A DNA stretch of 64,000 nt from a bacterium (lineage in GTDB: Bacteria > Electryoneota > Electryoneia > Electryoneales > Electryoneaceae): positions 310,001-374,000 of the forward strand of contig JAHLLH010000003.1 in the NCBI GenBank assembly GCA_020444265.1, given 5' to 3'. The notes below the pieces were generated by a model that worked only from the letters and a program-made list of their open reading frames with translations, was not told the origin of the DNA and made no database searches. The position numbers and the translations under genes were made by a program. Positions 280-58,381 of the stretch are shown one piece after another (positions within the stretch are counted from its first letter, which is position 1; every line of letters starts with the position of its first letter).

Positions 280-1427
280 TGATGATCATGCGTAAACGAG
301 AAACGACAACGATGCCTCATCGGGAAACCACGACTGGCCGTACGGTGCGCAGGCTGCTGCTTGCCACCCTGCTGATGGGTGTGGCCATGGTGCCGGCTTC
401 CGCACAGGAGCTCTTCTCGATCCTGGGTGGACAGCGTGTTGGCACCTCCGCGATGCCTTTCCTCAAGATTCCCGTCGGCGCACGTGCCGAGGCGATGGGT
501 GGTGCCTATGTCGCCATTGCCAACGATGCCTTCGCGGCCTACTGGAATCCGGCAGGCATTGCACAGCTCGGCAATCGCTGGGCTGGATCGTACACCTACG
601 ATCCGGAGAAGGCAGAGCCTGGTGTAAAGGCGCCAACGAGTAACTGGGCAAGGATGCAACGCGGGGATCGAGCACTCGGGCTGGTCCGAATCAATTGGAT
701 TGCCGACATCAGTTACAACGCGTTGTCGTATGTCCAACCACTTCCTGCCGGTGTGCTGGGAGTGTCAGTAGCATCTCTCTCCACAGCAGATATGGAAGTG
801 ACCACCGAATATCACCCCGATGGTACCGGTGAGTATTTCAGCTATGGTGACATGTTGCTCGGACTGAGCTATGCCCTGCCGATGACAGACAACTTCAGCT
901 GGGGCGTCACCCTCAAGTACGCGCGGGAAACGCTCGCCGACTATACGATGAACAACGTGCTCGTCGACCTGGGTACCTACTACTGGACTGGGTATCGTGA
1001 TTTGCGCATCGGGGTTGCCCTGATGCATTTCGGCCCGAACTCAAAGCCGGATGGCAGCTTTACCGCTGTTGATGTGAATGGCAACGAGCATGAGTCGGAC
1101 TTCACCGCCTACGCACCACCCACTGAATTCCGCCTGGGTGGAGCGATGACTTTGTTCGGCACACGGATGCACCGATTCCTCGGATCCTTCCAGTTGAACC
1201 ACCCGGTAGATAACTCGGAAAACCTGAAGCTCGGTGGAGAGTACACGTTCAACGGGATGCTCTTCCTGCGTGGCGGGTACAAGCTGAACACGGATGAAGA
1301 TCGCTATTCTTACGGTGCCGGGCTTCGTGTTCCGGTTGCTGGTATGGCGATGACAATCGACTACAGCTACACCGACTTCGGCATCCTCGACCAGGCACAG
1401 CGGTTGAGTATTGGCCTGACCTTTTGA
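279..1427 (+). CDS. PorV/PorQ family outer-membrane beta-barrel protein
   Basis: 382 residues. A basic N-terminus (R-R-L-L-L-A-T-L-L-M-G-V-A-M-V-P-A-S-A-Q) is a clear Sec signal peptide. The mature protein opens with F-L-K-I-P-V-G-A-R-A-E-A-M-G-G-A-Y-V and then A-F-A-A-Y-W-N-P-A-G-I, the signature of the PorV/PorQ (UPF0164) family. It ends in Q-R-L-S-I-G-L-T-F, a barrel C-terminus. PorV in Bacteroidetes takes T9SS cargo from the translocon to the attachment complex; other family members have unknown roles. Several in-frame ATGs (279, 282, 288, 312) could be the start; 279 overlaps the preceding stop. It sits between a TonB receptor and a lipoprotein, which suggests one envelope operon. A second family member is at 52487. 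Whether this one is the true PorV is not decidable here. Confidence 0.85.
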   Translation: MMIMRKRETTTMPHRETTTGRTVRRLLLATLLMGVAMVPASAQELFSILGGQRVGTSAMPFLKIPVGARAEAMGGAYVAIANDAFAAYWNPAGIAQLGNRWAGSYTYDPEKAEPGVKAPTSNWARMQRGDRALGLVRINWIADISYNALSYVQPLPAGVLGVSVASLSTADMEVTTEYHPDGTGEYFSYGDMLLGLSYALPMTDNFSWGVTLKYARETLADYTMNNVLVDLGTYYWTGYRDLRIGVALMHFGPNSKPDGSFTAVDVNGNEHESDFTAYAPPTEFRLGGAMTLFGTRMHRFLGSFQLNHPVDNSENLKLGGEYTFNGMLFLRGGYKLNTDEDRYSYGAGLRVPVAGMAMTIDYSYTDFGILDQAQRLSIGLTF

Positions 1428-1464
1428 TGCAACCCGGCACCACCACCGGATGGAGCGATAGACG

Positions 1465-3087
1465 ATGATTTTGGCCAGAACGACAAAATGGATTGCCGGT
1501 GCGGCGCTGATGGGTGCGATGCTGTTGGCCGGGTGCGGGGATCAACCTGATCTGCCCACCTCGATCAACACTCAGCCCGAGGATTTTGGCGCTAACGACA
1601 CCAGCTTTGTCCGTGTAACTCCCGACTGGGACTTCAACTATGGTCATGACTGGATTCAGCCCACCGACTTGCTTGTCGGGTATGACGGCCGCCTGTTCGT
1701 CGTCGACTCAGCCTCGGTTGGCACTCACACAAATGGCCGCGTGACTCAGTTAACGCGTAGCGGCAGTGTGATGCACAATGATCTCTTTGCCGGAGTCGCG
1801 GACACCTCATTCGCTCCGCAGGGGATTGGGCAGGACAGCCGCATGAACCTCTACATGGTCAACGGGACCAACTCGGTGTATGTCTGGAACCAGTACATCA
1901 ATGACATTGGTGTCGCAGCCATCCTTTCCAGCTTCACTTTGCGGAATGCTGAAACGGGGGACTCCCTCGTCATCGATAACACTCAACCCCTCTACCAGCA
2001 GGTTCCAGACGGCTGGAACTCGCTTGGTGATCCAGCCTGGCAATTGGACGAGCAAACGCTTGTTTCCATTATTGATGCCGATTCGACTGCCAAGTATGAG
2101 GAGGAGTACCGTTTCTTCACCGACACCTCATCCGCAAATATCCATGCAAGCTTCACGGATGTTGATGGAGGGCCATCACGGTCCGGGACGGTTTATGTCA
2201 CCGACCGTGGCTCATCCAGTGGCGGGGATCGCATCTTCACCCTCACCGTCCTCCCCTCGCGAGTGCTGATTCTGAACGATGGTTCAGTGAATTATGTCTA
2301 CCACGGGGACTATGTCCAGCAAGTTGTTGGCGCAGGTACCGGGCAGGCATCGACCAATGATCCTACAAGTGTGGTAACATCCGGTGCCGGAAGTGCAACA
2401 GCCGTCTACTTTGCCCAGACCTCAGGCAGTTTCCGTGTCCAGCGTGTAAAACGAGACGTCTCCGGCAACTGGTTAAGTGATATTGGCGGCGGTTCGGGTG
2501 GTGAACCAACCGTGATGCAACTCGGCTATTTTAATCGTCCAGCCGCTATTGCAGTAGGTGAGTCGGATTCACGAGGGCTCGGGCTTTTCTACGTAGCCGA
2601 TTCTGACAAAAACAAGGTTACTGCCTTCCATCCGAACGGGTGGGAATTCCGCCAGGTTTCCGTGGATGAAGAACTGATCGATCTGGTTGGGGGAGAGGTG
2701 TTGGACGATGTCCTTGCGGATCGTGGTGAGACCCTGGATGTTGACCTTAATCCTTCGCTGGTAGACTTTGTCGCAGCACGGACCCAGGGAATCGCCCTGG
2801 ATTCTTCCGAGGTCCTTTCGGATGTCCTTGCTGGGATGGAACTTGAATTTGATGGTACGTTGAACGATCCGGTGTTGGAAAATTACATTGCGCAAAGCGA
2901 TACCTTGATCCATCTGCTTTTCGCTGCAGACACTACAGTCAGCGTCTACTACCCAATTCTGAATGCGCCCCGGGGTGTCGCGACCCTGGAGGGAGTGGTC
3001 TATATCGCCGATACCGGCAACGATCGAATCCTTCGTTTCCGTAGAACGGACAGCGATTCCTACATCCCCTCGGATCCTGACAGTTGA
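1465..3087 (+). CDS. Secreted lipoprotein with NHL-like beta-propeller repeats
   Basis: 540 residues. The start ATG follows GGAGCGATAGACG. The N-terminus M-I-L-A-R-T-T-K-W then a hydrophobic run ending L-L-A-G-C is a lipobox, with the Cys about residue 25. The mature chain carries repeated segments of the type P-R-G-V-A-T-L-E-G-V-V-Y-I-A-D-T-G-N-D-R-I-L-R-F and G-L-F-Y-V-A-D-S-D-K-N-K-V, typical of NHL propeller blades. The C-terminus is Ser/Asp-rich. It is probably an envelope-anchored scaffold or binding protein acting with the upstream TonB receptor and PorV-like protein. No catalytic motif is visible. An intrinsic terminator follows directly, so it closes the transcription unit. Confidence 0.7.
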   Translation: MILARTTKWIAGAALMGAMLLAGCGDQPDLPTSINTQPEDFGANDTSFVRVTPDWDFNYGHDWIQPTDLLVGYDGRLFVVDSASVGTHTNGRVTQLTRSGSVMHNDLFAGVADTSFAPQGIGQDSRMNLYMVNGTNSVYVWNQYINDIGVAAILSSFTLRNAETGDSLVIDNTQPLYQQVPDGWNSLGDPAWQLDEQTLVSIIDADSTAKYEEEYRFFTDTSSANIHASFTDVDGGPSRSGTVYVTDRGSSSGGDRIFTLTVLPSRVLILNDGSVNYVYHGDYVQQVVGAGTGQASTNDPTSVVTSGAGSATAVYFAQTSGSFRVQRVKRDVSGNWLSDIGGGSGGEPTVMQLGYFNRPAAIAVGESDSRGLGLFYVADSDKNKVTAFHPNGWEFRQVSVDEELIDLVGGEVLDDVLADRGETLDVDLNPSLVDFVAARTQGIALDSSEVLSDVLAGMELEFDGTLNDPVLENYIAQSDTLIHLLFAADTTVSVYYPILNAPRGVATLEGVVYIADTGNDRILRFRRTDSDSYIPSDPDS

Positions 3088-3108
3088 TGTATGATACCGA
3101 CGATTTTT

Positions 3109-3144
3109 CAACCCCTTGTCGATTGTGGCAGGGGGTTGTTTTTT
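3109..3144 (+). terminator. Intrinsic terminator after the NHL lipoprotein
   Basis: Stem CAACCCC (3109-3115) pairs with GGGGTTG (3132-3138) and is followed by six T. It lies 21 bp after the lipoprotein stop, on the right strand to end the TonB-PorV-lipoprotein unit. Confidence 0.8.
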
Positions 3145-3271
3145 GTGGTGATGCTATACAGTTACAGGGAATGTTCTAAAAGGGGAGCAAAGTGAGTATA
3201 CTGTCTTTGTGAGGTGGAACATTTTGGGGTTTTATTTAATTATATTGGATTATCGACAGCGGAGTTCCTTA

Positions 3272-4216
3272 GTGAATCCATTCGCCCCGTCTACACATGG
3301 GATGCATCCCCTCATCCTGACGTTTTCTCGCACACGAGAACGACGGTTCCGTCGCTACTATCTCCATCATAACCTGAAATACATCAGGATTGCCGGGATT
3401 GTCGCCACCCTGATCTGGGTGCTGTTCGGATTCACGGATTACCTCTGGGCAACCGATGAAGTGATTCGTACGAATGCGGTTTACCGCAACCTTGTGGTGC
3501 TTCCATTCCAGCTAGTCGCAATTCTCTCAAGCTACCTGAAGCGTTTTCGTCTCTTCCTGCCAACCCTGTTCACGATCGCGATTTTATCGGTTGGTGTTGG
3601 CCTGTCCCTGATGAACCATGCAAATCAAACGGAAGACTATGTAACCGTTGAGGTGGGGTACATCCTGCTGATTGTCGCCGGGTATACCTTTTTCCGGCTT
3701 CGAATCGTGCATGGGTTGTTGATTGGCGGGATGGTGTTGCTGCTCAATGTGGTGGATAATGTCTCGCTTGGACTGCCTTTTACGTCACTCATCTACAGTA
3801 CACTGGTCCTGGTTGTTACCAACATTTTCGGTGGTTTTGCCGGCTATGGCATGGAATACTTCACCCGGTTGGAGTATTTGAACCGTCAACGAGCTGCTGC
3901 AGAGAAAAAGATGGATCTCGAGATGGCAAATCTTCGATCGGTGCAGGAGTTGGCTCGAACGGTGGCACACGAGTTCAACAACCCATTGCACGTGATCCAG
4001 GGGATTTACGATCTGCACATCGAACCGACCCTGCCCGAAAGGGAAGAGGAGGAACGTCACCGGATCGAACGTATCCCGGCGATGGTCGAGCACATGTCCG
4101 AGTTGGTCAACAGGATTGTGTCGATCACACGGATCGAACGGCGGGACTATGTGCCTGGCTCAAAAATGCTGGACCTGAAGCGAACAGATGATCGTCCAAC
4201 ACCTCCCTCCGAGTAA
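3272..4216 (+). CDS. Membrane protein with HisKA-like H-box but no ATPase domain
   Basis: 314 residues from a GTG start at 3272, chosen because GGAG lies 7 bases upstream; GTG 3209 and ATG 3302 are alternatives. The N-terminal two-thirds holds about six hydrophobic segments. A short coiled segment (Q-R-A-A-A-E-K-K-M-D-L-E-M-A-N-L) leads to A-R-T-V-A-H-E-F-N-N-P-L-H-V-I-Q-G, a canonical histidine-kinase H-box (His about residue 233), and a second helix through S-E-L-V-N-R-I-V-S-I-T-R-I. The protein then stops about 20 residues later. The N, G1, F and G2 boxes of a HATPase domain are absent here and in the next 100 bases. It could dimerise with another kinase or act as a phosphotransfer protein; both are inference. 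It is unusual enough that an assembly or frame error should be excluded. Confidence 0.65.
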   Translation: MNPFAPSTHGMHPLILTFSRTRERRFRRYYLHHNLKYIRIAGIVATLIWVLFGFTDYLWATDEVIRTNAVYRNLVVLPFQLVAILSSYLKRFRLFLPTLFTIAILSVGVGLSLMNHANQTEDYVTVEVGYILLIVAGYTFFRLRIVHGLLIGGMVLLLNVVDNVSLGLPFTSLIYSTLVLVVTNIFGGFAGYGMEYFTRLEYLNRQRAAAEKKMDLEMANLRSVQELARTVAHEFNNPLHVIQGIYDLHIEPTLPEREEEERHRIERIPAMVEHMSELVNRIVSITRIERRDYVPGSKMLDLKRTDDRPTPPSE

Positions 4217-4321
4217 CCCGCAGTTTCTCCCTGCGCTCCTCGTACCTACGGCGAACGCTGGTTCGACAGTCTATCTTGTCTGAACACTTGCCAGGTAAAC
4301 TTTGACAAGGAATGGACGCCG

Positions 4322-5491
4322 ATGGCCGACGCCCTGATTCATGGAGATGCTGGCATTCTTTTCGTGCTGGCTGGTAATGCCGCCTTCTGGTTTTTTCTTG
4401 AGAAAAAGACCAAAGCGAAATTTTTCAACTATGTCCCACCGCTGATTTTTATCTACCTGCTGCCAGCGGTTTTCAGCAATACTGGGATTATTACTAACCA
4501 CAGCGCCGTCTATGACTGGATGGGGGATGTTATCCTCCCGGTCTTCCTCGTACTCCTGTTACTGGATGTTGATGTAAAAGCGACCATCCGTGTGATGGGA
4601 CGTGGGGTCTTTGTCATGCTGATCGGGACCCTCGGTGTGGTCGTCGGTGCGCCGATTGCCTACATGGTGGTCAAAGGGTGGCTCGAGCCAGATGCCTGGA
4701 CCGGCTATGGTGCGTTGGCGGGATCGTGGATTGGCGGCACCGGCAACATGGCAGCGGTGGCGGAGGGGATCGGCACCAGCGGGACCAACTTCGGGCTGGC
4801 GGTCATTGCAGACAACCTCGTCTACCTGATCTGGCTGCCGCTCCTGCTGAATGCGAAATCCCTTGCCAAGGTCTTCCACAAGTTTACGGGTGTCAGCGAT
4901 GCCCACCTCGACCGAATGAAATCCCTGGCTGATGAGATGGTCGTTGAGAAACCTGCTCCTGAGATGCGTCACCTGCTCTACCTGATAGCGATCGGGTTTG
5001 GAGTGGCCTGGTTGTCGGAGCAGATCGCCTCCGTGCTGACCCCGCTTCCGCCGGTCTTTACGGCCAAGACCTACCAGATCCTGCTGGTGACGATTAGTGG
5101 TATCGCCCTCTCGTTCACCGGGGCACGGAAAATCCCGGGCAGCCATGAACTGGCGATGGCGTTGGTTTACCTCTTTGTCAGCCGCATGGGGGCAAAGACC
5201 GTCGTCGCAGGCCTCGCCGGGCAGGCACTTCCCTTTGTTGCGGGCGCCTACATCTGGATCTTCATCCACGGCGCTTTCATCCTGCTCGCAGCCCGACTCT
5301 TCCGCATCGACATCCACACCGCCGCGATCAGTTCCGCCGCCAATATCGGCGGAGCTGCTTCGGCACCGATCGTCGCCGCCTACCATGATGAACGTCTCGT
5401 ACCCGTCTCAATCCTGATGGCATTGATCGGCTACGCGGTGGGGAATGTGGCCGCCTTTGGGACGGCATGGTTGCTTAGTCTGGTGGCGTAA
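4322..5491 (+). CDS. DUF819 family integral membrane protein
   Basis: 389 residues with about ten to eleven hydrophobic segments and almost no large soluble domain. The duplicated small-residue patterns G-S-W-I-G-G-T-G-N-M-A-A-V-A-E-G-I-G and S-S-A-A-N-I-G-G-A-A-S-A-P-I-V-A-A-Y are characteristic of the DUF819 (YjcL-like) family, in which two inverted halves carry Gly/Asn-rich re-entrant segments. The fold resembles secondary transporters, but no substrate is known to me. It is preceded by GGAATGGACGCCG and followed by a perfect hairpin with a T-run, so it is probably a single-gene unit. Confidence 0.8.
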   Translation: MADALIHGDAGILFVLAGNAAFWFFLEKKTKAKFFNYVPPLIFIYLLPAVFSNTGIITNHSAVYDWMGDVILPVFLVLLLLDVDVKATIRVMGRGVFVMLIGTLGVVVGAPIAYMVVKGWLEPDAWTGYGALAGSWIGGTGNMAAVAEGIGTSGTNFGLAVIADNLVYLIWLPLLLNAKSLAKVFHKFTGVSDAHLDRMKSLADEMVVEKPAPEMRHLLYLIAIGFGVAWLSEQIASVLTPLPPVFTAKTYQILLVTISGIALSFTGARKIPGSHELAMALVYLFVSRMGAKTVVAGLAGQALPFVAGAYIWIFIHGAFILLAARLFRIDIHTAAISSAANIGGAASAPIVAAYHDERLVPVSILMALIGYAVGNVAAFGTAWLLSLVA

Positions 5492-5520
5492 CGATTGCCC
5501 ACTAGCTTCCTTACTACCGT

Positions 5521-5552
5521 TGCGTCAGGCCCCCAAGCCTGACGCATTTTTC
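5521..5552 (+). terminator. Terminator formed by a copy of an interspersed palindrome (family A)
   Basis: TGCGTCAGGC (5521-5530) pairs perfectly with GCCTGACGCA (5537-5546), followed by TTTTT. A second stem, GTCAGAC/GTCTGAC, follows at about 5554-5573. Related sequences occur at about 31108-31160 and, for the first hairpin, at 37359-37383. It therefore seems to be a mobile or repeated hairpin acting here as the terminator of the DUF819 gene. Confidence 0.7.
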
Positions 5553-6009
5553 TGTCAGACGAGGATGTCTGACTAAATGCGATTTCGTTGACGCGGCAAC
5601 TCCATGCGAGGGTTTAATCTGGTTTTTCTATTGGTCCTATGTTCTGCCCCGTTGTGCAGGTCTGCCTGATGAAACCCGGGGCTGAAGACCCAGACCACCC
5701 GATCTTTGGGTCTTGATAGACACCCTGAGATCGCCCTATTCCAGTAGGTATGCGCTTTCGAGCCTTCTCGGGGAGGCTTGAAACGGTTGCGCGAATCTCG
5801 TACTTTCACACAGAACTGGAGGTGGCTCTCGCGGGGGGTGTTGTTCCGGTTATTTCCGGTGTTCCGCGCTGGTAGCCACCTCGTCTTATGGAAACTTTGT
5901 GATGGCTGGAACGAGGGCCGTACGCGGCACCCCCGGTGAGGGAGTGCATGGTTCGGCTTTGGTTTCTCTCAGGTCACACCGAACAGGCTAGCGCAGGAGA
6001 ACGTCCGTC
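5553..6009 (+). promoter_or_regulatory. Hairpin-rich leader upstream of the serine operon
   Basis: No convincing gene in these 457 bases. Hairpins read by eye: AAGACCCA (5685-5692) with TGGGTCTT (5707-5714); GAGCCT/AGGCTT around 5759-5779; a long one at 5819-5882 with outer stem GAGGTGGCT/AGCCACCTC and inner stem CGCGGGG/TTCCGCG; and GTTCGG/CCGAAC at 5951-5984. The stretch near 5673-5702 (CCGGGGCTGAAGACCCAG) resembles the reverse strand at about 37291-37325, so part may be an interspersed repeat. The 3' half lies directly before the DUF1015-serC-serA genes and could be a regulatory leader. No T-run that would make it a clear attenuator was found. Confidence 0.4.
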
Positions 6010-9603: not shown

Positions 9604-9677
9604 CGGGGCGTGGCGCAGTCCGGTAGCGCACCTGCTTTGGGAGCAGGGGGTCGCTGGTTCGAATCCAGTCGCCCCGA
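9604..9677 (+). tRNA. tRNA-Pro (anticodon TGG)
   Basis: Acceptor CGGGGCG pairs with CGCCCCG; D-arm GCGCAGTCCGGTAGCGC; anticodon stem CCTGC/GCAGG with loop TTTGGGA; T-arm with GGTTCGAATCC. The discriminator is A. The following bases read CCG, so CCA is not fully encoded. Confidence 0.95.
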
Positions 9678-9740
9678 CCGGGTGCGGCGGGAGCTTGTGA
9701 CCGTCGACCAAGACAAGCGCGGCGCGACCCGCGGCGGAAT

Positions 9741-9817
9741 GCGCCAGTAGCTCAACTGGATAGAGCACCGGCCTTCTAAGCCGGCGGTTCGGGGTTCAAG
9801 TCCCTGCTGGCGTACCA
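9741..9817 (+). tRNA. tRNA-Arg (anticodon TCT)
   Basis: Acceptor GCGCCAG pairs with CTGGCGT (first pair G-U). Anticodon stem CCGGC/GCCGG encloses CTTCTAA. T-loop is GTTCAAG. The discriminator A is followed by an encoded CCA (9815-9817), unlike the neighbouring tRNAs. Confidence 0.95.
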
Positions 9818-9877
9818 CGGGGAACAGCTGCAGGCAGGCGGCCCCGGTTGACAGAATGGATGTTGTGTTTGCCGCAT

Positions 9878-9952
9878 GGTCCGCATAGCTCAGTTGGTTA
9901 GAGCGCCTGACTGTGGCTCAGGAGGCCGCGGGTTCGAGTCCCGCTGCGGACC
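9878..9952 (+). tRNA. tRNA-His (anticodon GTG)
   Basis: Acceptor GTCCGCA pairs with TGCGGAC; anticodon stem CCTGA/TCAGG with loop CTGTGGC. The genome encodes G at 9878 opposite discriminator C at 9952, the G-1:C73 pair that histidyl-tRNA synthetase needs. CCA is not encoded. Confidence 0.95.
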
Positions 9953-10002
9953 CTCTTTTTGTAGTTTGCTGGCTGGACGTTAGTCCCGAATTTTTGTAAG
10001 GC

Positions 10003-10074
10003 GGCCCCATCGTCTATCGGTTAGGACACCGGGTTTTCATCCCGGCAAGAGGGGTTCGATTCCCCTTGGGGTCA
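10003..10074 (+). tRNA. tRNA-Glu (anticodon TTC)
   Basis: Acceptor GGCCCCA pairs with TGGGGTC (one G-U); D-arm carries TCTATCGGTTAGGAC; anticodon stem CCGGG/CCCGG with loop TTTTCAT; T-arm GGGGTTCGATTCCCC. CCA is not encoded. It is the last tRNA of the cluster and is followed by a strong terminator. Confidence 0.94.
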
Positions 10075-10079
10075 CACGG

Positions 10080-10114
10080 AAACGGCTCGCATCTTAGGAT
10101 GCGGGCCGTTTTTA
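10080..10114 (+). terminator. Intrinsic terminator of the tRNA cluster
   Basis: AACGGC-T-CGCATC (10081-10093) pairs with GATGCG-G-GCCGTT (10098-10110), closed by TTAG and followed by a T-run. It suggests that the four tRNAs form one transcript. Confidence 0.9.
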
Positions 10115-10342
10115 GTTGTTTTGCAGTACTGTATGACAGGTTGCACAATCTGGTCGCTATCTTGACTCGAGAGGAGCATAGGATGGACAAAATGTGAAAG
10201 AAGTTGCATGGAGCTTGACGGAAGTCAATTTTTTTTTTTAGGATAAAGGCAGGGAGTACGAATTATACGTATCGTGGGCGAGCAATCAGGCTGCTTTTGT
10301 CGAGTCATGGGGACTCGTTAATCATAGAGAAGAGGGGGAAGT
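10115..10342 (+). promoter_or_regulatory. AT-rich spacer with a mini-ORF and a short hairpin plus T11 run
   Basis: At 10215-10239 the stem TTGAC-GGAA-GTCAA runs into eleven T, an intrinsic-terminator shape with a very short stem. Just before it, GAGAGGAGCATAGG precedes a four-codon reading frame (ATG GAC AAA ATG TGA, 10183-10197). Together they could be a leader-peptide attenuator for the gene at 10343 or chance. The strong GAGGGGGAAGT before 10343 is that gene's ribosome-binding site. Confidence 0.35.
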
Positions 10343-10792
10343 ATGAAACGCACCTCGATGTTCCTCGTCCTGTTTGTCCTGCTGTTTGTAGCCAGTACTT
10401 CCATCGCTGCACCGCCACCGCCGGATCCGCTATATCATTACGAACATACGGTCTACGGCGATGAGCCTACCCTGAACATACCTGAAAGACCGTTTACGGA
10501 TCTCGATCTGTCCATCACACTTAATGCATACTCTAATGCGGGTGAAACTCCGATATTTTTTGCCTATACGGATGCCATCTATATTAATGATGGTGATCCA
10601 GTTCTTGGCGTAACGATAACAGGTAGTTATCACAATGGTATCACCCAGGGCTCAGGTGGACTAGTTTCAGTTGATGGAACACGATCTGGAGTAGCGGCAA
10701 ACAATAATCCTCAGTTTTCCGTTACCGTTTTTGATAACAATTACTTCAATGACGAGGAAACGAATGCGGAAATCATTCTTCATCTTGAGTGA
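10343..10792 (+). CDS. Small secreted protein of unknown function
   Basis: 149 residues, with a well-placed AGAGGGGGAAGT ribosome-binding site. A Sec signal peptide is clear (K-R-T then fifteen hydrophobic residues, cleavage after S-I-A-A near residue 23). The mature part is about 125 residues, rich in Asn, Thr, Asp and aromatic residues, and probably all beta-strand. There are no cysteines and no catalytic motif I recognise. Its codons are AT-richer than those of the serine operon, matching the following propeller gene, so the two may have arrived together. A perfect 12-bp hairpin follows its stop. Confidence 0.6.
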   Translation: MKRTSMFLVLFVLLFVASTSIAAPPPPDPLYHYEHTVYGDEPTLNIPERPFTDLDLSITLNAYSNAGETPIFFAYTDAIYINDGDPVLGVTITGSYHNGITQGSGGLVSVDGTRSGVAANNNPQFSVTVFDNNYFNDEETNAEIILHLE

Positions 10793-10809
10793 CCTGAAAG
10801 AGTAATTTT

Positions 10810-10844
10810 ACGTCCGGGTTCCTAAGTTCCTAGAACCCGGACGT
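10810..10844 (+). terminator. Perfect 12-bp hairpin after the small secreted protein
   Basis: ACGTCCGGGTTC (10810-10821) pairs fully with GAACCCGGACGT (10833-10844) around an 11-base loop. The 3' side reads ATCTATG rather than a T-run, so it may act as a Rho-aided terminator or mRNA stabiliser instead of a simple intrinsic terminator. Confidence 0.55.
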
Positions 10845-10876
10845 ATCTATGTTATACCATAAAACAGAGCTTACGG

Positions 10877-13231
10877 ATGATGAATCGCACCTGGAAAATA
10901 GTTGTGGCTTCTGCGACGATAATTGTTGGGGCCAGTGTCGGTAATAGTTGGGAGAGAATACCAGCCAGTTCTGTAATTCCAAGTGTTTTGGTTAGTAGTG
11001 CAGATGAGCAAAAAATTCTGCTTGGAAACGGAGAGAGTGGATATGCTCTATCCTATGACGGTGGAGCAAATTGGGAAATCGTAAATCCATGGTTGCCTGA
11101 AGGAATAAATCGCTACGACGATGCATTCACCATTGATGCGGAGGCGGATACAATCTTTCTAAGTGGTGCGAATGTATTGCACGATTCACTACGGTTCTGT
11201 TACACCTTCAATGGTGGAATCACGTGGAACCGATATATTGCTGATTGGGTCGAAGATGGACTATACGTTTATCTTCCAAGAAGAATGACTTTTGACGGAC
11301 GTAATCATAATAGAATATGGTATATAAATCCTGTATATCTACTTAGAACAGAAGATGGAGCTAGAACATGGGAAAAGATACCTATTGATTCAGTAAGTTA
11401 CACAATCTCTTCGTTTTTTCAGGATCCTGATGACGATAGCCGTCTGTGGGCTTCCGGAATCGTATTGGACAACGAATTGATTAATAACCCACTAAATCGA
11501 TTAATTCGAAGAAGTGATGATAGAGGGGAACACTGGGCGAGTACCTTAAATTATAGTTCGATTTCAGATTTAGACTATTCACAAATAGTCACTACTGATA
11601 TGATCAAATTGTCGAATGGGCATTTGCTTCTTTCGCTTCGTGCGACACGAGACGGGGAGGCTGATTTGGTGAATGGCCTTTTTATGTCTGAAGATGATGG
11701 TGTAACGGGAACCTTTTACAGCGGAAATCTCCCCTTTGGATTCATCCCCACCAGGTTGGTGGAGACAGCCAACTTTCCAGGTACAGTTCTAGTAATTGGT
11801 TCAAGCGCAAAGGGGGTGTACCGTTCTACAGATTACGGAGTGACTTTTAATCGGTGTGAGGAAGGGTTGCCCGATGGTGCCACACAGATAATGGAATTAT
11901 CAAGCAATCCTTTTAGTCATTTGATCTATGTTAGCATTCGTGATTGGGGGATCTATTCAACCTCAGATGGCGGGATAACATGGGAGCACATTCAAAGACC
12001 CGAGACTGGAACCCGCATGCATTTCAAGGTATTTCCAGAGCAGATTGTCCAAACGGGTGATGGATACATGCTTCAGCAGTTTTTTTTCGAGTCTGGTGAA
12101 ACGACCACCTTTTCAATACCTGTCATCAATAGCGAATTATTTCAACCCTACCCAGTTGTTTTTGCAGATGGTTCTACAATTGTGACAGGGGTTCAGATTA
12201 TTGATGTGGAAGGCGAATCGGTCAGCTGGTCAACGATAAAAAGTGATGATCTTGGACAATCTTGGGAAGAGTTGGCTGACCGAATGCCATATCGGACTAC
12301 GCATTACAGAAGCTGGCAAGGTGAAGATGAAGCAAGGTTGTATACGCTTTGTCATTCTGAGTCCGGGGTCCGTTTTTTCGTGTCAACAGATACAGCACAC
12401 ACTTGGACTGAAGGTGGTTCGATTCCGGGGTCTTCATCCGGCGTCTACGATTTCAAAAACAGGGACACAACACTCTATATCAGGCAATTTCATCATGGGA
12501 TCAGTCGCATTTTTCGGTCAAACAATGACGGTTTGGAGTGGGAGGATCTTAATTTTCAAGATGGGTTTGCAATGCATTATCCACTCGACTCAGAGCGATT
12601 AATCGTTGCAGTCTACCTCGATCAGGATTCGTATAAAATCTACACATATATTGATGATCAATGGAGGATTGTCCAGCATGACCTTCAGGTGAATGGAACC
12701 TTTATTCTTGTTCCGGGATCGAGAGAACGGGTAGTGACAACATATACCAATCACAATGCAGAAACCGATTTACTGATCAGTGAGGACATGGGTGAAACCT
12801 GGATTCGTCGCCCACTGACGATTCCCTATGCGGAGTATCATCCCTTTATCGGCAGCCTGCAATACGATCCGTGGCGAGATCGAGTGTGGTTGTCGACGGG
12901 GGTCGGGTTGTGCTGGATGCCGGCCTCCGAACTGGCAGTTGGTGAGGGGCCGATTACACCGATTCCGCTCGACCATGACATGATCACCAACTACCCGAAC
13001 CCCTTCAACGATCAGACCCGCATCCGTTACACCCTCGCGAAGCCGGGTGAGATCAAGGTCGAGCTCTACGATCTGCAGGGCCGTCTGGTGAGGACCCTCG
13101 AAGAGGGCCACAAGTCCGCAGGTCAGCACGATATCGCACTCGTCTCCAACGGCATGGCCTCTGGAACCTATTTCCTCCGCCTGACCTCACCCGGCGATGT
13201 CACCACAACACGGTTGACGTTGGTGAAGTAA
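10877..13231 (+). CDS. Secreted BNR/sortilin-type beta-propeller with T9SS sorting domain
   Basis: 784 residues. The N-terminus (M-M-N-R-T-W-K-I-V-V-A-S-A-T-I-I-V-G-A-S-V-G) is a signal peptide. Repeats of the Asp-box kind recur, for example S-Y-D-G-G-A-N-W-E, T-F-N-G-G-I-T-W-N, T-S-D-G-G-I-T-W-E and R-S-N-N-D-G-L-E-W-E, as in sialidase/VPS10 propellers. The last 80 residues (N-Y-P-N-P-F-N-D-Q-T-R-I-R-Y-T then Y-F-L-R-L and a final T-L-V-K) are a type A T9SS C-terminal domain, so the protein is exported and surface-attached or released. Base composition changes within the gene: 17 of 60 bases are G or C at 11281-11340 and 35 of 60 at 12841-12900. No enzymatic residues could be assigned; binding or adhesion is plausible. 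Confidence 0.8.
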   Translation: MMNRTWKIVVASATIIVGASVGNSWERIPASSVIPSVLVSSADEQKILLGNGESGYALSYDGGANWEIVNPWLPEGINRYDDAFTIDAEADTIFLSGANVLHDSLRFCYTFNGGITWNRYIADWVEDGLYVYLPRRMTFDGRNHNRIWYINPVYLLRTEDGARTWEKIPIDSVSYTISSFFQDPDDDSRLWASGIVLDNELINNPLNRLIRRSDDRGEHWASTLNYSSISDLDYSQIVTTDMIKLSNGHLLLSLRATRDGEADLVNGLFMSEDDGVTGTFYSGNLPFGFIPTRLVETANFPGTVLVIGSSAKGVYRSTDYGVTFNRCEEGLPDGATQIMELSSNPFSHLIYVSIRDWGIYSTSDGGITWEHIQRPETGTRMHFKVFPEQIVQTGDGYMLQQFFFESGETTTFSIPVINSELFQPYPVVFADGSTIVTGVQIIDVEGESVSWSTIKSDDLGQSWEELADRMPYRTTHYRSWQGEDEARLYTLCHSESGVRFFVSTDTAHTWTEGGSIPGSSSGVYDFKNRDTTLYIRQFHHGISRIFRSNNDGLEWEDLNFQDGFAMHYPLDSERLIVAVYLDQDSYKIYTYIDDQWRIVQHDLQVNGTFILVPGSRERVVTTYTNHNAETDLLISEDMGETWIRRPLTIPYAEYHPFIGSLQYDPWRDRVWLSTGVGLCWMPASELAVGEGPITPIPLDHDMITNYPNPFNDQTRIRYTLAKPGEIKVELYDLQGRLVRTLEEGHKSAGQHDIALVSNGMASGTYFLRLTSPGDVTTTRLTLVK

Positions 13232-15999: not shown

Positions 16000-16033
16000 A
16001 AGAGGCCCAGGTGAACGTTCACCTGGGCCTCTT
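16000..16033. terminator. 34-bp perfect palindrome between convergent genes
   Basis: AAGAGGCCCAGGTGAAC (16000-16016) is followed without spacer by its exact reverse complement (16017-16033). It sits between the stop of the plus-strand T9SS protein and the stop of the minus-strand ankyrin gene. As RNA from either strand it forms a very stable hairpin, so it can act as a bidirectional terminator, although a long T-run is missing. Confidence 0.8.
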
Positions 16034-46808: not shown

Positions 46809-47405
46809 ATGCACGCGATACAGCGACATCTTCCCAATGCGTTGACTCTGTTGCGGTTCCCTCTGACGGCATTATTCCTCTACGGATCCTTCCATGAGGA
46901 ACTGGCCTGGCGACTTGCTGCAACCCTCTTTTTCCTGCTCAGCATGCTGACCGACCTGCTGGACGGCCATGTTGCGCGAAAAATGGGGACGGTCAGCCCA
47001 CTGGGGAGTTTTCTCGATCCTCTGGCGGACAAGGTGCTGGTACTGTCGGGTTTCTTCGTTCTCTGGATGCGTCCCGGACTTGAGTGGGGTGCCTGGGCCC
47101 CGTATGTCATTGGATCGGTTGTGGTCATTGCCCTGCGTGAAATCGCGGTCACAGTCCTTCGTTCCTGGCGGGTCAAGCAGGATCGTCCCTTGGTGACATC
47201 TATCTGGGGGAAGGCAAAGACCACGACACAGATGGTCGCATTGGTTGTCGCCCTGCTCTTGCTGAACATTCGTGAATCGCTGCGAGTTGATCTACCACAA
47301 GTAATGCATATCATTGCCCTGGGGATCATCTTGAGTGCAATTCTGGCAGCGATTAGTGCAACCGATTATTTCCGCGGCCCGTCCAGCGTTCGCACGGACA
47401 ACTGA
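46809..47405 (+). CDS. pgsA: CDP-alcohol phosphatidyltransferase (PgsA-like)
   Basis: 198 residues from ATG 46809, preceded by GGAGAGGCTGG. Six hydrophobic segments. The CDP-alcohol signature D-x2-D-G-x2-A-R-x8-G-x3-D-x3-D is complete as L-L-D-G-H-V-A-R ... G-S-F-L-D-P-L-A-D-K. N-terminal L-P-N-A-L-T-L-L-R-F-P-L-T and length fit CDP-diacylglycerol-glycerol-3-phosphate phosphatidyltransferase, the committed step to phosphatidylglycerol. Other CDP-alcohol enzymes share the motif, so PgsA is the best rather than the only reading. Confidence 0.88.
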   Translation: MHAIQRHLPNALTLLRFPLTALFLYGSFHEELAWRLAATLFFLLSMLTDLLDGHVARKMGTVSPLGSFLDPLADKVLVLSGFFVLWMRPGLEWGAWAPYVIGSVVVIALREIAVTVLRSWRVKQDRPLVTSIWGKAKTTTQMVALVVALLLLNIRESLRVDLPQVMHIIALGIILSAILAAISATDYFRGPSSVRTDN

Positions 47406-53580: not shown

Positions 53581-54933
53581 TTAATCCAATAGGTACTTCT
53601 TCATCTTCCGCCACAACGTTGCCCGGCTGATCCCCAATTCGGAGGCAGCCTGCTGACGGTTTCCTTCGTTCTCCTCCAGTACAGTCCGGATGGTTTCCCG
53701 TTCGGATAATTCCATTGGTGAGAAGGAGGAGGAGGAGATGATCCCACCTGGTTTATCACGCTCCTGACGACCACGACGGACCGTGTGCTGCAACTCGTCC
53801 GGCAAGTTTGACAAGTCGATGCTTTCATCCTCTGCGAGAACCGCAGCACGTTCCACGATGTTTTCCAGCTCTCGAACATTGCCGGGGAAATCCCACGCCA
53901 TCATCGCACGCAGGGCGAGAGGGGTGGTTCGCATGGTGGGGCGGTTGTTCAGCAGTCCCCAAGTCTGGAGAAAGTGATCGACTAGCAAGGGGACATCCTC
54001 TTTACGGTCACGCAAAGGGGGGATGTCGATCGTCAGCACGTTGATCCTGTAGAAGAAGTCCTCACGATAGAGCCCGCGTTGCAGCAATTCCTCGAGGTTA
54101 CGGTTGGTGGCGGCGACCACGCGGACATCGGCTTTACGGGTCTTGTTTGAACCGAGCGGTTCATAGCTACGATCCTGGAGGAAGCGGAGCAGCTTGACCT
54201 GCATCGCAGGGCTTAAATCGCCCACTTCATCGATGAAAAGAGTACCGTTGTTCGCTGCGGCGATACGTCCCTCGTGATCCTGACGTGCATCGGTAAAGGC
54301 GCCCTTCACGTAGCCAAAGAGCTCCGCCTCGAGCAGGGTGTCAGGCAGGGCGGCGCAGTTGACCGAGATGAAGGGCTGATGCCGTCGTCCCGAAAGGGAG
54401 TGCAATGCTTTGGCAATCAACTCCTTACCCGTACCTGATTCGCCACGGACAAGGACGGTGCTGTGGCTTTCTGCAAGACGAGGCAGGACATCGAAAATGG
54501 CACGCATCCGGTGGTTGCGTGACAAGATGCCTTCAAAGGAAGATTCGCGGGCGAGACGTGTCCTCAACTCGTGCACCGTACGAATGTCACCAAAAGTCTG
54601 AATGCCCCCCATCAAGTTGTGCTCATCGTCAAAGAGGACATAGGAGACAACTCGCACCGGGATCTGGTCACCGACTCGGTTGAGGACCGTGATGATTTCC
54701 TCCTCACGAGTCGTTCCCTTGCGGATGCAGCTTCTGAGAGGACAATCGGATCCATCCAGAAAAGGACGCAATACTTCTTTGCAGGGACGACCCACTGCTT
54801 CGTGTTCCTCCCATCCCGTGATGAGCTGGGCGGAGGGATTGAGACGGACGACATTCAGGTCTTTATCGGTGATCATCACTCCACAGGCGACACTTTCCAG
54901 CACCGCATCGAGTGTGCTCTTCTTTGTATGCAC
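53581..54933 (-). CDS. PAS-sensing sigma-54-dependent transcriptional activator
   Basis: 450 residues from a GTG at 54933, chosen because GTGGAGGAAGTTCTC lies directly upstream; a TTG at 54984 would add 17 residues. Residues about 5-120 form a PAS domain with a Cys pair (D-C-P-L-R-S-C, Cys64 and Cys69) that could bind a metal or cluster or sense redox state. The AAA+ domain has Walker A G-E-S-G-T-G-K-E (164-171), the sigma-54 contact loop G-A-F-T-D-A (211-216, Asp in place of the usual Gly) and F-I-D-E-V-G-D. A Fis-type helix-turn-helix closes the chain (R-Q-Q-A-A-S-E-L-G-I-S-R-A-T-L-W-R-K). It is divergent from the NifX-like gene, whose promoter is a sigma-54 type, and it most likely activates that gene. 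Confidence 0.92.
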   Translation of the reverse strand: MHTKKSTLDAVLESVACGVMITDKDLNVVRLNPSAQLITGWEEHEAVGRPCKEVLRPFLDGSDCPLRSCIRKGTTREEEIITVLNRVGDQIPVRVVSYVLFDDEHNLMGGIQTFGDIRTVHELRTRLARESSFEGILSRNHRMRAIFDVLPRLAESHSTVLVRGESGTGKELIAKALHSLSGRRHQPFISVNCAALPDTLLEAELFGYVKGAFTDARQDHEGRIAAANNGTLFIDEVGDLSPAMQVKLLRFLQDRSYEPLGSNKTRKADVRVVAATNRNLEELLQRGLYREDFFYRINVLTIDIPPLRDRKEDVPLLVDHFLQTWGLLNNRPTMRTTPLALRAMMAWDFPGNVRELENIVERAAVLAEDESIDLSNLPDELQHTVRRGRQERDKPGGIISSSSFSPMELSERETIRTVLEENEGNRQQAASELGISRATLWRKMKKYLLD

Positions 54934-54977
54934 GAGAACTTCCTCCACTGGGTGGTCAACCAAAAGTAGAGCTAAAT

Positions 54978-54993
54978 GTTTCAATATTGCAAC
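54978..54993. promoter_or_regulatory. Imperfect palindrome, second candidate activator site
   Basis: GTTTCAATATTGCAAC is an inverted repeat with one mismatched pair and shares the GTTTCA half-site with the adjacent perfect palindrome. The centres are about 15 bp apart. Confidence 0.5.
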
Positions 54994-55009
54994 TGTTTCA
55001 TGAAACAGT
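54992..55009. promoter_or_regulatory. 18-bp perfect palindrome, candidate upstream activating site
   Basis: ACTGTTTCATGAAACAGT. Fis-type activators bind such inverted repeats as dimers. It lies 58 bases upstream of the activator start and about 80 bp before the -24 element of the divergent NifX-like gene, a normal enhancer distance. It could also autoregulate the activator. Confidence 0.72.
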
Positions 55010-55086
55010 ATCAGGGGTGAAACGCGTGTCGCGCTTGATCTGAGAAGAAGGGCCCGTCATTGCTGCTTTTGCAGGGTAGTGGGTTT

Positions 55087-55102
55087 TGGCACAAGCCTTG
55101 CA
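55087..55102 (+). promoter_or_regulatory. Sigma-54 promoter (-24/-12) of the NifX-like gene
   Basis: TGGCACAAGCCTTGCA matches the sigma-54 consensus TGGCAC-N5-TTGCA exactly at the conserved positions. Transcription should begin near 55114, giving a leader of about 190 bases. In that leader CGGGCACGGT (55119-55128) pairs with ACCGTGCCCG (55180-55189), and ATCCCGGGAT occurs twice (55209-55218, 55267-55276). Confidence 0.85.
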
Positions 55103-55307
55103 TTTCTTTCGGGCGGAACGGGCACGGTCGCCCACCACCACTGGTTGCTGGGGGGGCGAAGGTGGTAGAGTGAGCGGCAACCGTGCCCGGTTCTACTCTC
55201 TTAGCTGCATCCCGGGATTTTTCGCGGCCGCGAGTCCAGCTCATTCACGTGAAATGGACTATCCGCATCCCGGGATGTTGTTTTTTTGCCAGAAAAGGAG
55301 CATTCGT

Positions 55308-55796
55308 ATGCGTGTCGCAGTTCCCAGTGACAATGAGAGGTTCATCGCCGCGCACACGGGACGTTGCCTCGGATTCGTCATTGCGGATGTTCAAGGTGGA
55401 GCCGTCAACCGCATTGAATACCGTCGCAACTCCTTCACCGGTCATGCCCTTGGTTTGCATCAGGAAGGTGGGCATCAGCACGGTGGTGGACAGGGTGGTG
55501 GTGGACAAGGTCTGGGGATGGGAATGGGTTCGGGCCAAGGCCAGGGACAAGGTCATGGACATGGACATGGGCATCACCATTCCCACAACAAGATTCTGAG
55601 TGGTTTGAACGACTGCCAGGCAATGCTCGCTCTCGGGATGGGTCCTCGTCTTCAGCAGGACTTAAGCGAGGCTGGAATTGAGGTCTTCTTCACACGGGAC
55701 AAGCAGATTGACCGTGTCCTCCAGCAGCTTGCCGATGGAGTGTTCACGTCGCACCCCGACGGATCAGCTTGCAAGGAGCATCAGCACCAGCACTGA
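55308..55796 (+). CDS. NifX/NifB-C-terminal-like protein with His/Gly/Gln-rich insertion
   Basis: 162 residues from ATG 55308, with AAAAGGAGCATTCGT upstream. Residues 1-45 (M-R-V-A-V-P-S-D-N-E-R-F-I-A-A-H-T-G-R-C-L-G-F) and about 94-150 (I-L-S-G-L-N-D-C-Q-A-M-L-A-L-G-M-G-P-R-L-Q-Q-D-L) are the two halves of the dinitrogenase iron-molybdenum cofactor fold (NifX, NafY, orange protein). They are split by a roughly 48-residue insertion of His, Gly, Gln and Met (for example H-G-H-G-H-G-H-H-H-S-H), and the C-terminus is again His-rich (H-Q-H-Q-H). Metal or Fe-S/Mo cluster binding is likely. No nitrogenase gene is present. The gene is under a sigma-54 promoter next to its probable activator. Confidence 0.87.
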   Translation: MRVAVPSDNERFIAAHTGRCLGFVIADVQGGAVNRIEYRRNSFTGHALGLHQEGGHQHGGGQGGGGQGLGMGMGSGQGQGQGHGHGHGHHHSHNKILSGLNDCQAMLALGMGPRLQQDLSEAGIEVFFTRDKQIDRVLQQLADGVFTSHPDGSACKEHQHQH

Positions 55797-55816
55797 TCCG
55801 ACGATGTGTCGTACGC

Positions 55817-55853
55817 ACCCCTTCCGTATTTCGGGAGGGGTTCTCTCTTTTCT
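55817..55853 (+). terminator. Intrinsic terminator after the NifX-like gene
   Basis: ACCCCTTCCG (55817-55826), loop TATTT, CGGGAGGGGT (55832-55841) then TCTCTCTTTT. It isolates the NifX-like gene as its own unit. Confidence 0.85.
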
Positions 55854-55941: not shown

Positions 55942-56721
55942 TTGCCGTATCGTTTTGTCATTGTAAGCACTGGAAACGACAGCTCCGCTCTCGACAGGAT
56001 GGAGGATCGTTTCGATGCCCATCTCGCACCCCACGGCCAGGTCGAAACCTTTCGTCTGGGCCAGGTGGATTCGTTGTTGAATGCCTACTGGAACAGTGCC
56101 CGCCTGGTGAACGATCCATCCGCCATTCTCCTTTTTTCGCACCAGGATGCGTATCCCGCCTTTGAGCCGGAAGGAGCGGCAGGCAGTGATGAAATTGAGA
56201 AACTGCGCGATTCTGTCCCCTGGCTGATTCCCGCTGTCGAACAACCGGGTGGTTGGGTGAATCAGGCACTTCGCCTCTTAAAAAAGAGGAATACTGGATT
56301 CCTCGGTGTCGCCGGTGCACACTCTTTGCATGCTGGGCAGGCATGGTGGAACGAGAAACAGGTCAGCGGGGCCGTGCTACATGGTTCCGAGTCTGGTGTC
56401 AATTTGAACGGGTATGGTCCTTACGGTCGAGTGGCGGTGGTGGATGGCCTCTTTATGATGGCTCGTGCCTCCCTGTTTGACGAACTCGGACCTGTTCGCA
56501 ACCATCGTGGTTTTCATTTCTATGACATGGAGTTGTCCCTTCGCGCTCATTTAGCGGGGAAAAAAAACTGGACCATTCCATTGCTCCTGATGCACATGAG
56601 TGGCGGTAAGACCATCGATGACCGGGATTGGACAGCAGCCGCCGATTCCTTCCAGAAGGTGCACACCGACCATCTCCCACTCGTGATCGAGGCAGAACCT
56701 CTGCCCGGCGGGGAGGTGTAG
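55942..56721 (+). CDS. Glycosyltransferase family 2-like protein
   Basis: 259 residues from a TTG at 55942, with GGAAAGAGGATCCA upstream; no ATG is suitably placed. V-I-V-S-T-G-N-D, L-L-F-S-H-Q-D-A-Y-P, G-V-A-G-A-H-S-L and V-D-G-L-F-M-M-A-R follow the pattern of the GT-A fold in the Glyco_tranf_2_5 type (the H-Q-D segment standing for the D-x-D motif). It is cytoplasmic with no membrane anchor. The next gene begins one base after its stop, so both should act together, probably adding sugars to a protein or a surface polymer. Confidence 0.7.
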   Translation: MPYRFVIVSTGNDSSALDRMEDRFDAHLAPHGQVETFRLGQVDSLLNAYWNSARLVNDPSAILLFSHQDAYPAFEPEGAAGSDEIEKLRDSVPWLIPAVEQPGGWVNQALRLLKKRNTGFLGVAGAHSLHAGQAWWNEKQVSGAVLHGSESGVNLNGYGPYGRVAVVDGLFMMARASLFDELGPVRNHRGFHFYDMELSLRAHLAGKKNWTIPLLLMHMSGGKTIDDRDWTAAADSFQKVHTDHLPLVIEAEPLPGGEV

Positions 56722-56722
56722 C

Positions 56723-58381
56723 ATGCCCGTCGAGCTGATCGATCACCAGCCGCCCGAGCACAAAGATTCTGTTCGCGAGGAGCTGGCACGTGGTGGTCTG
56801 AAAACGGCCTTCTATCTCGAAACTCTCTCCGGTTGGAAAGCGATTGATTCCCCCTATGAGCCTCGAGGTGAGGCGGAACGTGCGCTGGGAAGAGTTTCCG
56901 AAGGTGCTCATGTCCTTGTTCTCGGTTGCGGTTCCGGCTTTTTCGCGGAAGAACTGGAGGCACGTGGGGTTGCGTCGGCACTGCTGGTCAGCCCGGTTCG
57001 TGCTTTGGTTGAGCGGACCGCCAAACGACTATCGAAGTTGGACAGCATCCGCACAGCGTTTCAGCTGGTTGCATCACAGGATGCAACTCGTTGTTTCAGT
57101 GAGCAGATTGAGCCCTACCTGAAGGAGCATCCGGACGTCATTGTGTTGCACCACCCTCGTGAAACTCGTGCTGTTCCGGGATTTTTTACACAACTGGATG
57201 TCTTGCTTCACGGCCGGACTCACCCACCTCGTTTCAGATCGAATTGGCCTCCAACAAAAGTGCTGTTGCCCGGCAGGGATGGCCTGCTGGAACGTGAGCT
57301 CATCCATGCTGCCCAGAATGCTGGTATGGAGCTGCGAACCTGCGAGCCCTTTGCCGGGACCAGGGTCACCGTTGAGCAAGCTTTTGACATTCTCGAGCGA
57401 GAAGCACCCGATCTCGTGCTTTCGACAAACAACCAGGGATCAGACGCCGATGGCGTCCTTCCTGAAGTCTGCAAGCATCTCGGGGTCCGGTGGGCAACCT
57501 GGTTGTTGGATGACCCGACCTTCCTCGTCGGGGTCGAGGAACAGCAGGGTGCTGGGCGAGACCGTGTCGGATTCGCGTGGGATGGTAATGGCATCGATGC
57601 GTGGCGTAATCTTGGTTTTCAGAATGTTCACCCTCTGCCCTTGGCGACGGACGCAAATCTGTTTACACCGGGAGAAGGCGATCCCGATCTGAATGGGCGA
57701 GTTGTATTTGTTGGCAGTCCTCGTTTTGCCAGCGCACCCGGCTTTTTCCACCTGCTCGACCAACATCCGGGCAGTTCGGCAGTGGTAAGCTTGCTCATGC
57801 CCGAGGTGCGACGGACACGTCGTACCCCTTCCGTCAGACAAGTGCAGGAAGCGATCCATTCCCTCGGTCTCGAGGGGAGTTTTGATCCAGAGGCGTTACG
57901 CCGCCTGCCTGCCTATGCGGTTCAGCAGGCAAACCGTGACTATCGCATTGAAATGATTGCTGCCCTGGCGCCCTTGAATCCGGTTGTCTATGGAGCCGGC
58001 TGGGAGGGACTGTTACCAGGGAGTGTCGAGTTGCTTGGCCCGGTTGACTACTACAATGATCTTCCGACCATCTACCGCAGCGATGCGGTCCACATCTCCC
58101 TGACCAACCTGCAGATGCGCGCCTGGCCCAACCAGCGAGTTTTTGATGTAGCTGCCGCGGGACAAGTGGTCGTAATGGACGAGCTTGAAGGTCTGCATGA
58201 TCTATTCGGAGATGCGGTAGAGGGACTGACCTTCAGCTCTGTTGAATCGATGTGCGACCTTGTCGATCGTCTGCTCAGATCAGCAGAACTACGTCAGCAG
58301 CACGCACAAGCACTCCGTCAGGTGGTCCTCGATCAACACACCATTGCACACCGTCTAGCAACGATGATCGATCAGCTCTGA
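56723..58381 (+). CDS. CgeB/DUF3880-type glycosyltransferase with MAF-like N-terminal domain
   Basis: 552 residues. The N-terminal domain has V-L-V-L-G-C-G-S-G-F-F-A-E-E-L, a Rossmann-like nucleotide loop seen in MAF-type proteins. The C-terminal half resembles CgeB/DUF3880 glycosyltransferases: P-D-L-V-L-S-T-N-N-Q-G, W-A-T-W-L-L-D-D-P, P-L-P-L-A-T-D-A-N-L-F, V-V-F-V-G-S-P-R-F and a late S-L-T-N-L-Q-M-R-A-W-P-N-Q-R-V-F-D-V-A-A-A-G. Such proteins are found with spore coat, flagellin and cell-wall glycan glycosylation. It is one base from the upstream glycosyltransferase. Acceptor unknown. Confidence 0.78.
   Translation: MPVELIDHQPPEHKDSVREELARGGLKTAFYLETLSGWKAIDSPYEPRGEAERALGRVSEGAHVLVLGCGSGFFAEELEARGVASALLVSPVRALVERTAKRLSKLDSIRTAFQLVASQDATRCFSEQIEPYLKEHPDVIVLHHPRETRAVPGFFTQLDVLLHGRTHPPRFRSNWPPTKVLLPGRDGLLERELIHAAQNAGMELRTCEPFAGTRVTVEQAFDILEREAPDLVLSTNNQGSDADGVLPEVCKHLGVRWATWLLDDPTFLVGVEEQQGAGRDRVGFAWDGNGIDAWRNLGFQNVHPLPLATDANLFTPGEGDPDLNGRVVFVGSPRFASAPGFFHLLDQHPGSSAVVSLLMPEVRRTRRTPSVRQVQEAIHSLGLEGSFDPEALRRLPAYAVQQANRDYRIEMIAALAPLNPVVYGAGWEGLLPGSVELLGPVDYYNDLPTIYRSDAVHISLTNLQMRAWPNQRVFDVAAAGQVVVMDELEGLHDLFGDAVEGLTFSSVESMCDLVDRLLRSAELRQQHAQALRQVVLDQHTIAHRLATMIDQL

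Follow-up and report, generated by a model that had tools for sequence, protein, structure and literature searches.

The divergent gene pair described here reads as a self-contained sigma-54 switch for one gene, to which a conserved leader hairpin adds a post-transcriptional element; taken as a whole explanation, we give this reading a probability of roughly two in three. The window (the whole 64-kb stretch of DNA that was analyzed, G000:C16:310001-374000) belongs to a genome of 4.33 Mb. In it, a sigma-54 activator of PAS/AAA+/Fis type and a His/Gly/Gln-rich gene of the NifX family form a divergent pair (Table 1). The arrangement is common to four genomes of one family, namely that of the window (G000), G002, G005 and G006. 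Seven genomes of the family were searched for relatives of the activator, and the closest were those in G002 (61%), G005 (53%) and G006 (51%), with the next paralogues far behind; a scan of genome contigs with the activator returned distant AAA+ relatives only. G005 and G006, too, have a His-rich NifX gene and the activator in divergent orientation. In G002 the pair is divided over two contig ends, which are very probably one locus because 83 identical bases are common to both. Since G005 and G006 are of the same genus, the four loci represent three genera.

Table 1. Features of the activator/NifX locus, in window coordinates.
Feature	Position	Strand	Evidence
Sigma-54 enhancer-binding protein: PAS with cysteines, AAA+ with GAFTDA, Fis-type HTH	53581..54933	-	Pfam, GAFTDA, cysteines, GGAGG before GTG
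PAS cysteines C34, C68, C81, C86 (467-aa frame numbering)	54727..54885	-	comparison with relatives
Weaker second half-site TGTTTCAATATTGCAAC	54978..54993	.	8-of-11 match
Palindromic operator, perfect 18-bp core 54992-55009, centre -112 from predicted start	54990..55011	.	sequence, relatives
Sigma-54 promoter TGGCAC-N5-TTGCA, predicted +1 at 55113	55087..55102	+	only match in 64 kb
Leader RNA hairpin, +8 to +76, probable diverged copy of the G002/G005/G006 element	55120..55188	+	folding, alignment, covariance model
Pyrimidine-rich tail after hairpin, also in relatives	55189..55203	+	sequence
NifX-family (PF02579) protein, 162 aa, C-terminal His residues	55308..55796	+	Pfam
48-residue Gly/His/Gln-rich insertion, residues 45-92 (22 G, 10 H, 7 Q)	55440..55583	+	translation
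Intrinsic terminator 3' of NifX-like gene	55817..55851	+	terminator scan

The activator frame (53581-54984, minus strand) matched the Pfam families Sigma54_activat (PF00158, E=5e-66), HTH_8 (1e-15) and PAS_9 (1e-9). Its longest open frame starts at TTG 54984 (467 aa), and the protein starts of the relatives, together with a GGAGG 8 nt upstream, suggest GTG 54933 as the likely start. As is expected of a bEBP, the AAA+ domain for interaction with sigma-54 carries a GAFTGA-like loop, here the variant GAFTDA that is present in all four orthologues; the genome also encodes sigma-54, and the target has a -24/-12 promoter. The genome search found one RpoN gene, and thus the absence of RpoN, by which the sequence-only reading had proposed that it could be refuted, does not apply. 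Among the cysteines of the PAS domain, C68 and C81 are invariant in 37 of 37 related activators, and C34 and C86 occur in 4 and 5 of the 37, respectively. Most paralogues have the pattern C-x8-C-x3-C; in the four orthologues the middle cysteine is missing, but C34 and C86 are present. The conserved cysteines, with the histidines, suggest that the activator may sense metal or redox state, and the signal would be read by the PAS-domain cysteines. Single-sequence AlphaFold2 models (n=2) were uninformative (pLDDT of 43 and 39).

The palindrome at 54992-55009 is ACTGTTTCATGAAACAGT, one of just two perfect 18-bp palindromes in the window. The other lies at 16008-16025 (CAGGTGAACGTTCACCTG). The operator motif CAACTGTTTCATGAAACAGTTG, allowing up to a few mismatches, is found in the window, in G006 and in G002. 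G006 keeps it as a palindrome and G002 does so with mismatches, whereas G005 has no palindrome and carries ACTGTTTCA twice as a direct repeat. The distance of the operator centre from the predicted start is -112 in the window and -135, -136 and -136 in the three relatives. We searched the family genomes for the 20-bp operator core with up to three mismatches, and the reversed pattern served as the control. The locus itself gave 0-1 mismatches in G000 and G006 and two in G002; all matches elsewhere had three mismatches, a level that the reversed control also reached in two genomes. The activator looks dedicated to this locus, because within the family genomes the operator motif occurs only there.

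Across both strands of the window, TGGYRC-N5-TTGCW matches just once, at 55087-55102 (TGGCACAAGCCTTGCA). The equivalents of this -24/-12 box in the relatives are TGGTGC (G005), TGGCGC (G006) and TGGAGC (G002), each followed by N5-TTGCT. On C72 of G005 (L076 17330, near 47330, + strand), a leader of moderate structure (z -2.7) comes after a sigma-54 consensus box (TGGCACTTGCTTTGCA). The palindrome and the promoter box that the sequence-only reading had reported are thus both present, the box is conserved in all three relatives, and the conservation expected of the palindrome holds for G006 and, with mismatches, for G002, but not for G005. The second related site of that reading is there as the weaker match of Table 1, but no separate counterpart was seen in the relatives. 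The operator lies some 57-78 bp ahead of the start of the activator, for which a promoter scan picked up no sigma-70-like promoter. In Desulfovibrio vulgaris the site of DVU2106 overlaps the sigma-70 promoter of its own gene, which leads to self-repression (PMC3897727), and the position of the palindrome just ahead of the start of the activator suggests that the present activator may likewise repress its own gene.

The product of the target gene matched PF02579 (Nitro_FeMo-Co) with E=1.6e-13 and 51.2 bits, against a curated cut-off of 26.3, which places it in the family. Profile searches revealed His-loop NifX proteins across the phylum and beyond, with shorter loops. The His-rich insertion is accordingly a trait of the subfamily, long here and not unique, because members with shorter loops are widespread. 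In several of those genomes the His-loop NifX gene follows a DUF134 gene, and the gene order in G015 is DUF134, His-loop NifX, a second NifX and a MinD/ferredoxin ATPase. We infer that in the family of the window's genome a His-loop NifX gene was transferred to a separate regulon. As a terminator follows the gene, the NifX unit is probably monocistronic. Its neighbours in the window are Mla transporter and glycosyltransferase genes; no MinD-type ATPase gene adjoins it. Two glycosyltransferase-like genes lie 3' of NifX (window 55942-58381), are syntenic in G005 and G006, and are separated from NifX in the window by the terminator. The sequence-only reading fares well on these points: Pfam matches for both proteins agree with its divergent gene pair, the 48-residue insertion that it had reported is confirmed, and the terminator, the restriction of the operator motif to the locus and the lack of an ATPase neighbour uphold a single effector. 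What it overlooked, while its sigma-54 circuit is supported, were the leader hairpin and the wide spread of the His-loop NifX subfamily with DUF134 regulators elsewhere, in one case within a cluster of ORP/MinD type.

The mRNA leader of the NifX gene is predicted to fold into a hairpin of approximately 62-70 nt that, counted from the predicted start, begins at +8 in the window, +5 in G005, +6 in G006 and +7 in G002, and ends between +66 and +76. The fold z-scores at the four loci were -5.1, -4.1, -4.8 and -3.0, and these four leaders were the most structured 78-nt leaders among 12 sigma-54-like sites in the loci examined. The apical sequence UGGUGGUYGGGGGGCUCCCA, with its one variable base, occurs once per genome in G002, G005 and G006. 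The outer stems vary among the relatives yet stay paired, through compensatory and G-U changes. A structure-guided alignment was used since MAFFT misplaced the right arm of G006. In this alignment 98.7% of cells were in standard pairs and five pairs had changed on both sides; the G006 row was fitted to the structure by hand with three 1-nt gaps, which favours G006, and G002 and G005 need no gap inside the hairpin. The 98.7% level was reached by 1 of 500 shuffles, registers slid along the alignment gave 33-61%, and retention of base pairs was far above a random-substitution null (P 5e-6 to 1e-5). The leader outside the hairpin was no more alike than shuffles, and since this remainder does not align, the hairpin is specifically retained. 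Covariation thus supports a structured hairpin in G002, G005 and G006, the three sequences that carry the full RNA motif.

Two covariance models recovered G002, G005 and G006 only from the sequences searched. Weaker matches were taken as chance, as they lay in other contexts and the one in the window's own genome was in apparent coding sequence. Rfam 15 gave no match, up to an E of 5, at the loci of the relatives or of the window, and in the whole window it matched tRNAs only. Four consecutive tRNA genes are located at window 9604-10074. The apical loop motif had no match in viral contigs, and no paper that we found describes a NifX-linked leader RNA.

The window copy is more distant. It shares the position of the hairpin and the 5' outer stem (GAACGGGCA) with the relatives, and it has the left half of the loop in common with G002 (TGGTTGCTGGGGGG versus TGGTGGTTGGGGGG), at a local score that 6 of 500 shuffles reached. 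It is without the apical CUCCCA. The full covariance model gave it a weak 12.2 bits on the transcribed strand and 19.3 bits on the opposite strand; the near-perfect inverted repeat of the outer stem accounts for the higher score of the latter. Judged from these likenesses, the window hairpin is probably a diverged member of the leader element, and the full RNA claim rests mainly on G002, G005 and G006. Two copies of GCATCCCGGGAT lie in the window leader (55207-55218 and 55265-55276); their ATCCCGGGAT parts are self-complementary, such that the copies could pair mutually or make a second hairpin. The paired copies were not seen in the leaders of the relatives.

Several other accounts of the hairpin were weighed. 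The chief competitor is a role in attenuation or as a short RNA, since in each of the four genomes the hairpin is succeeded by a pyrimidine-rich tail. The hairpin would then be a terminator that yields an RNA of ~80 nt ending in the hairpin, and NifX would be expressed only via read-through or antitermination. The strength of the hairpin ahead of that tail in 4 of 4 genomes agrees with this, as does the similar CU-rich tail of the NifX gene's own terminator. Yet the leader tails have few consecutive T, the terminator scan that was used did not pick up the leader hairpins, and no conserved antiterminator pairing was found downstream; we consider attenuation unlikely. Somewhat better placed, though still rather unlikely, is a generic stem that protects the 5' end of the mRNA and whose loop sequence has no partner. 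The start at +5 to +8 and the high stability are what one expects of a 5' stabilizer, but stability alone needs no loop of the kind seen here, where the apical 20 nt are identical but for one base in G002, G005 and G006 while the stems vary with compensation.

Two further readings dispense with a regulatory RNA structure altogether, and both were set aside. The conserved stretch could be a small coding region for a leader peptide, WWLGGSHDG, given a frame that translates as GIVA..WWLGGSHDG in G002 and G005 and as IV..WWSGGSH in G006. The differences between G002 and G005, however, show no clear codon periodicity (6/5/3), G006 is fitted only with three 1-nt gaps, a common start codon was not seen, and the changes keep base pairs, all of which makes this peptide very improbable. 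Hardly better are the chances of a DNA inverted repeat that another protein binds with no RNA structure involved. Long inverted repeats near promoters are often operators, but many of the stem pairs are G-U and several of the changes proceed via G-U, which argues that the hairpin is an RNA rather than a DNA repeat.

We infer that the leader is a post-transcriptional element, either a site for a trans-acting factor or an mRNA stabilizer; the reading we prefer has such a factor or a ligand bound at the G-rich tip and the 5' end protected as well. The conserved parts would then operate in the following sequence. The activator, on reading its signal, would bind at the palindrome, which lies 112-136 bp ahead of the start, and in the bound state would make the sigma-54 RNA polymerase open the promoter. 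The sole target found is the predicted monocistronic mRNA for the NifX-like protein. The hairpin would act after transcription has started and thereby set the amount of protein made, with the G-rich tip binding a protein, a ligand or an RNA, or with the stem protecting the 5' end. The His-rich loop of the product, which has the NifX/orange-protein fold, probably holds or carries a metal or a metal-sulfur cluster. A bolder version, tentative and on balance doubtful, makes the hairpin a new regulatory RNA class in which the G-rich tip is itself the sensor, be it of a metal, of a metal cofactor or of a dedicated protein that might be the NifX-like product. If so, a sigma-54 switch that responds to redox state or metal would be checked a second time at the level of RNA.

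Proteins of the orange-protein and NifX-like kinds occur widely. As the system is pared down at this locus to a single activator with a single site, promoter and product, both the signal and the metal are testable in isolation. The nearest known system is that of DVU2106, a single-component regulator with GAFTDA (PMC4641369), which binds palindromes near the sigma-54 orp promoters (PMC3897727). The present circuit shares with the orp operons the single-component GAFTDA activator, palindromic sites, sigma-54 promoters, the divergent layout and a target of the PF02579 fold. The Desulfovibrio likeness drawn by the sequence-only reading is borne out by conservation, promoter geometry, GAFTDA and the cysteine-bearing PAS domain; OrpR (DVU2106) itself carries an iron-sulfur cluster and has a redox role. 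As in OrpR-type control, a palindromic site lies upstream of the sigma-54 promoters of an orange-protein-fold gene, with the direct repeat of G005 in its place there. Control of operons with MinD-type ATPases, another mark of the OrpR type, was not found. In contrast to the orp operons, the target here is one monocistronic His-rich gene, MinD ATPases do not adjoin it, and the mRNA has a structured leader; its product is not recognized as MrpORP (NCBIfam, 21.9 bits versus a cut-off of 450).

The same genome has a fuller ORP-like cluster (L067, G000:C11:660000-679999, 772-5779) with Cys-PAS activators, NifX and two MinD-type ATPases with ferredoxin motifs, adjoining genes for an iron-sulfur membrane complex. 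At L066 (G000:C11:640000-659999, 10102-12645), a Cys-PAS activator is followed by a 258-residue NifX-like protein and an iron-sulfur oxidoreductase gene. The window activator resembles those of L066 and L067 in domain order, the invariant C68 and C81, GAFTDA and neighbouring PF02579 genes. It differs from them in its cysteines, since most of theirs follow C-x8-C-x3-C while the window group is without the middle cysteine and has C34 and C86. The leader hairpin was not found at the L066 and L067 loci. With the DUF134-linked His-loop NifX proteins of G015 (L128) and G028 (L130), the product shares membership of the HTGR...GMGPRL subfamily, with a shorter loop there; unlike those genes, NifX here stands alone under a sigma-54 activator. 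The leader resembles the riboswitches and structured leaders of Rfam 15 as a conserved structured RNA at an mRNA 5' end, and departs from them in being a single hairpin with no multi-helix architecture and no Rfam match. A sigma-54 circuit here gains an unexpected RNA layer, and one that is absent from Rfam. On its sigma-54 side the locus represents a single-gene variant of the orp circuit type that stands outside the ATPase-containing orp operons; the circuit is of a known kind, and the conserved leader RNA is the new and surprising addition to it.
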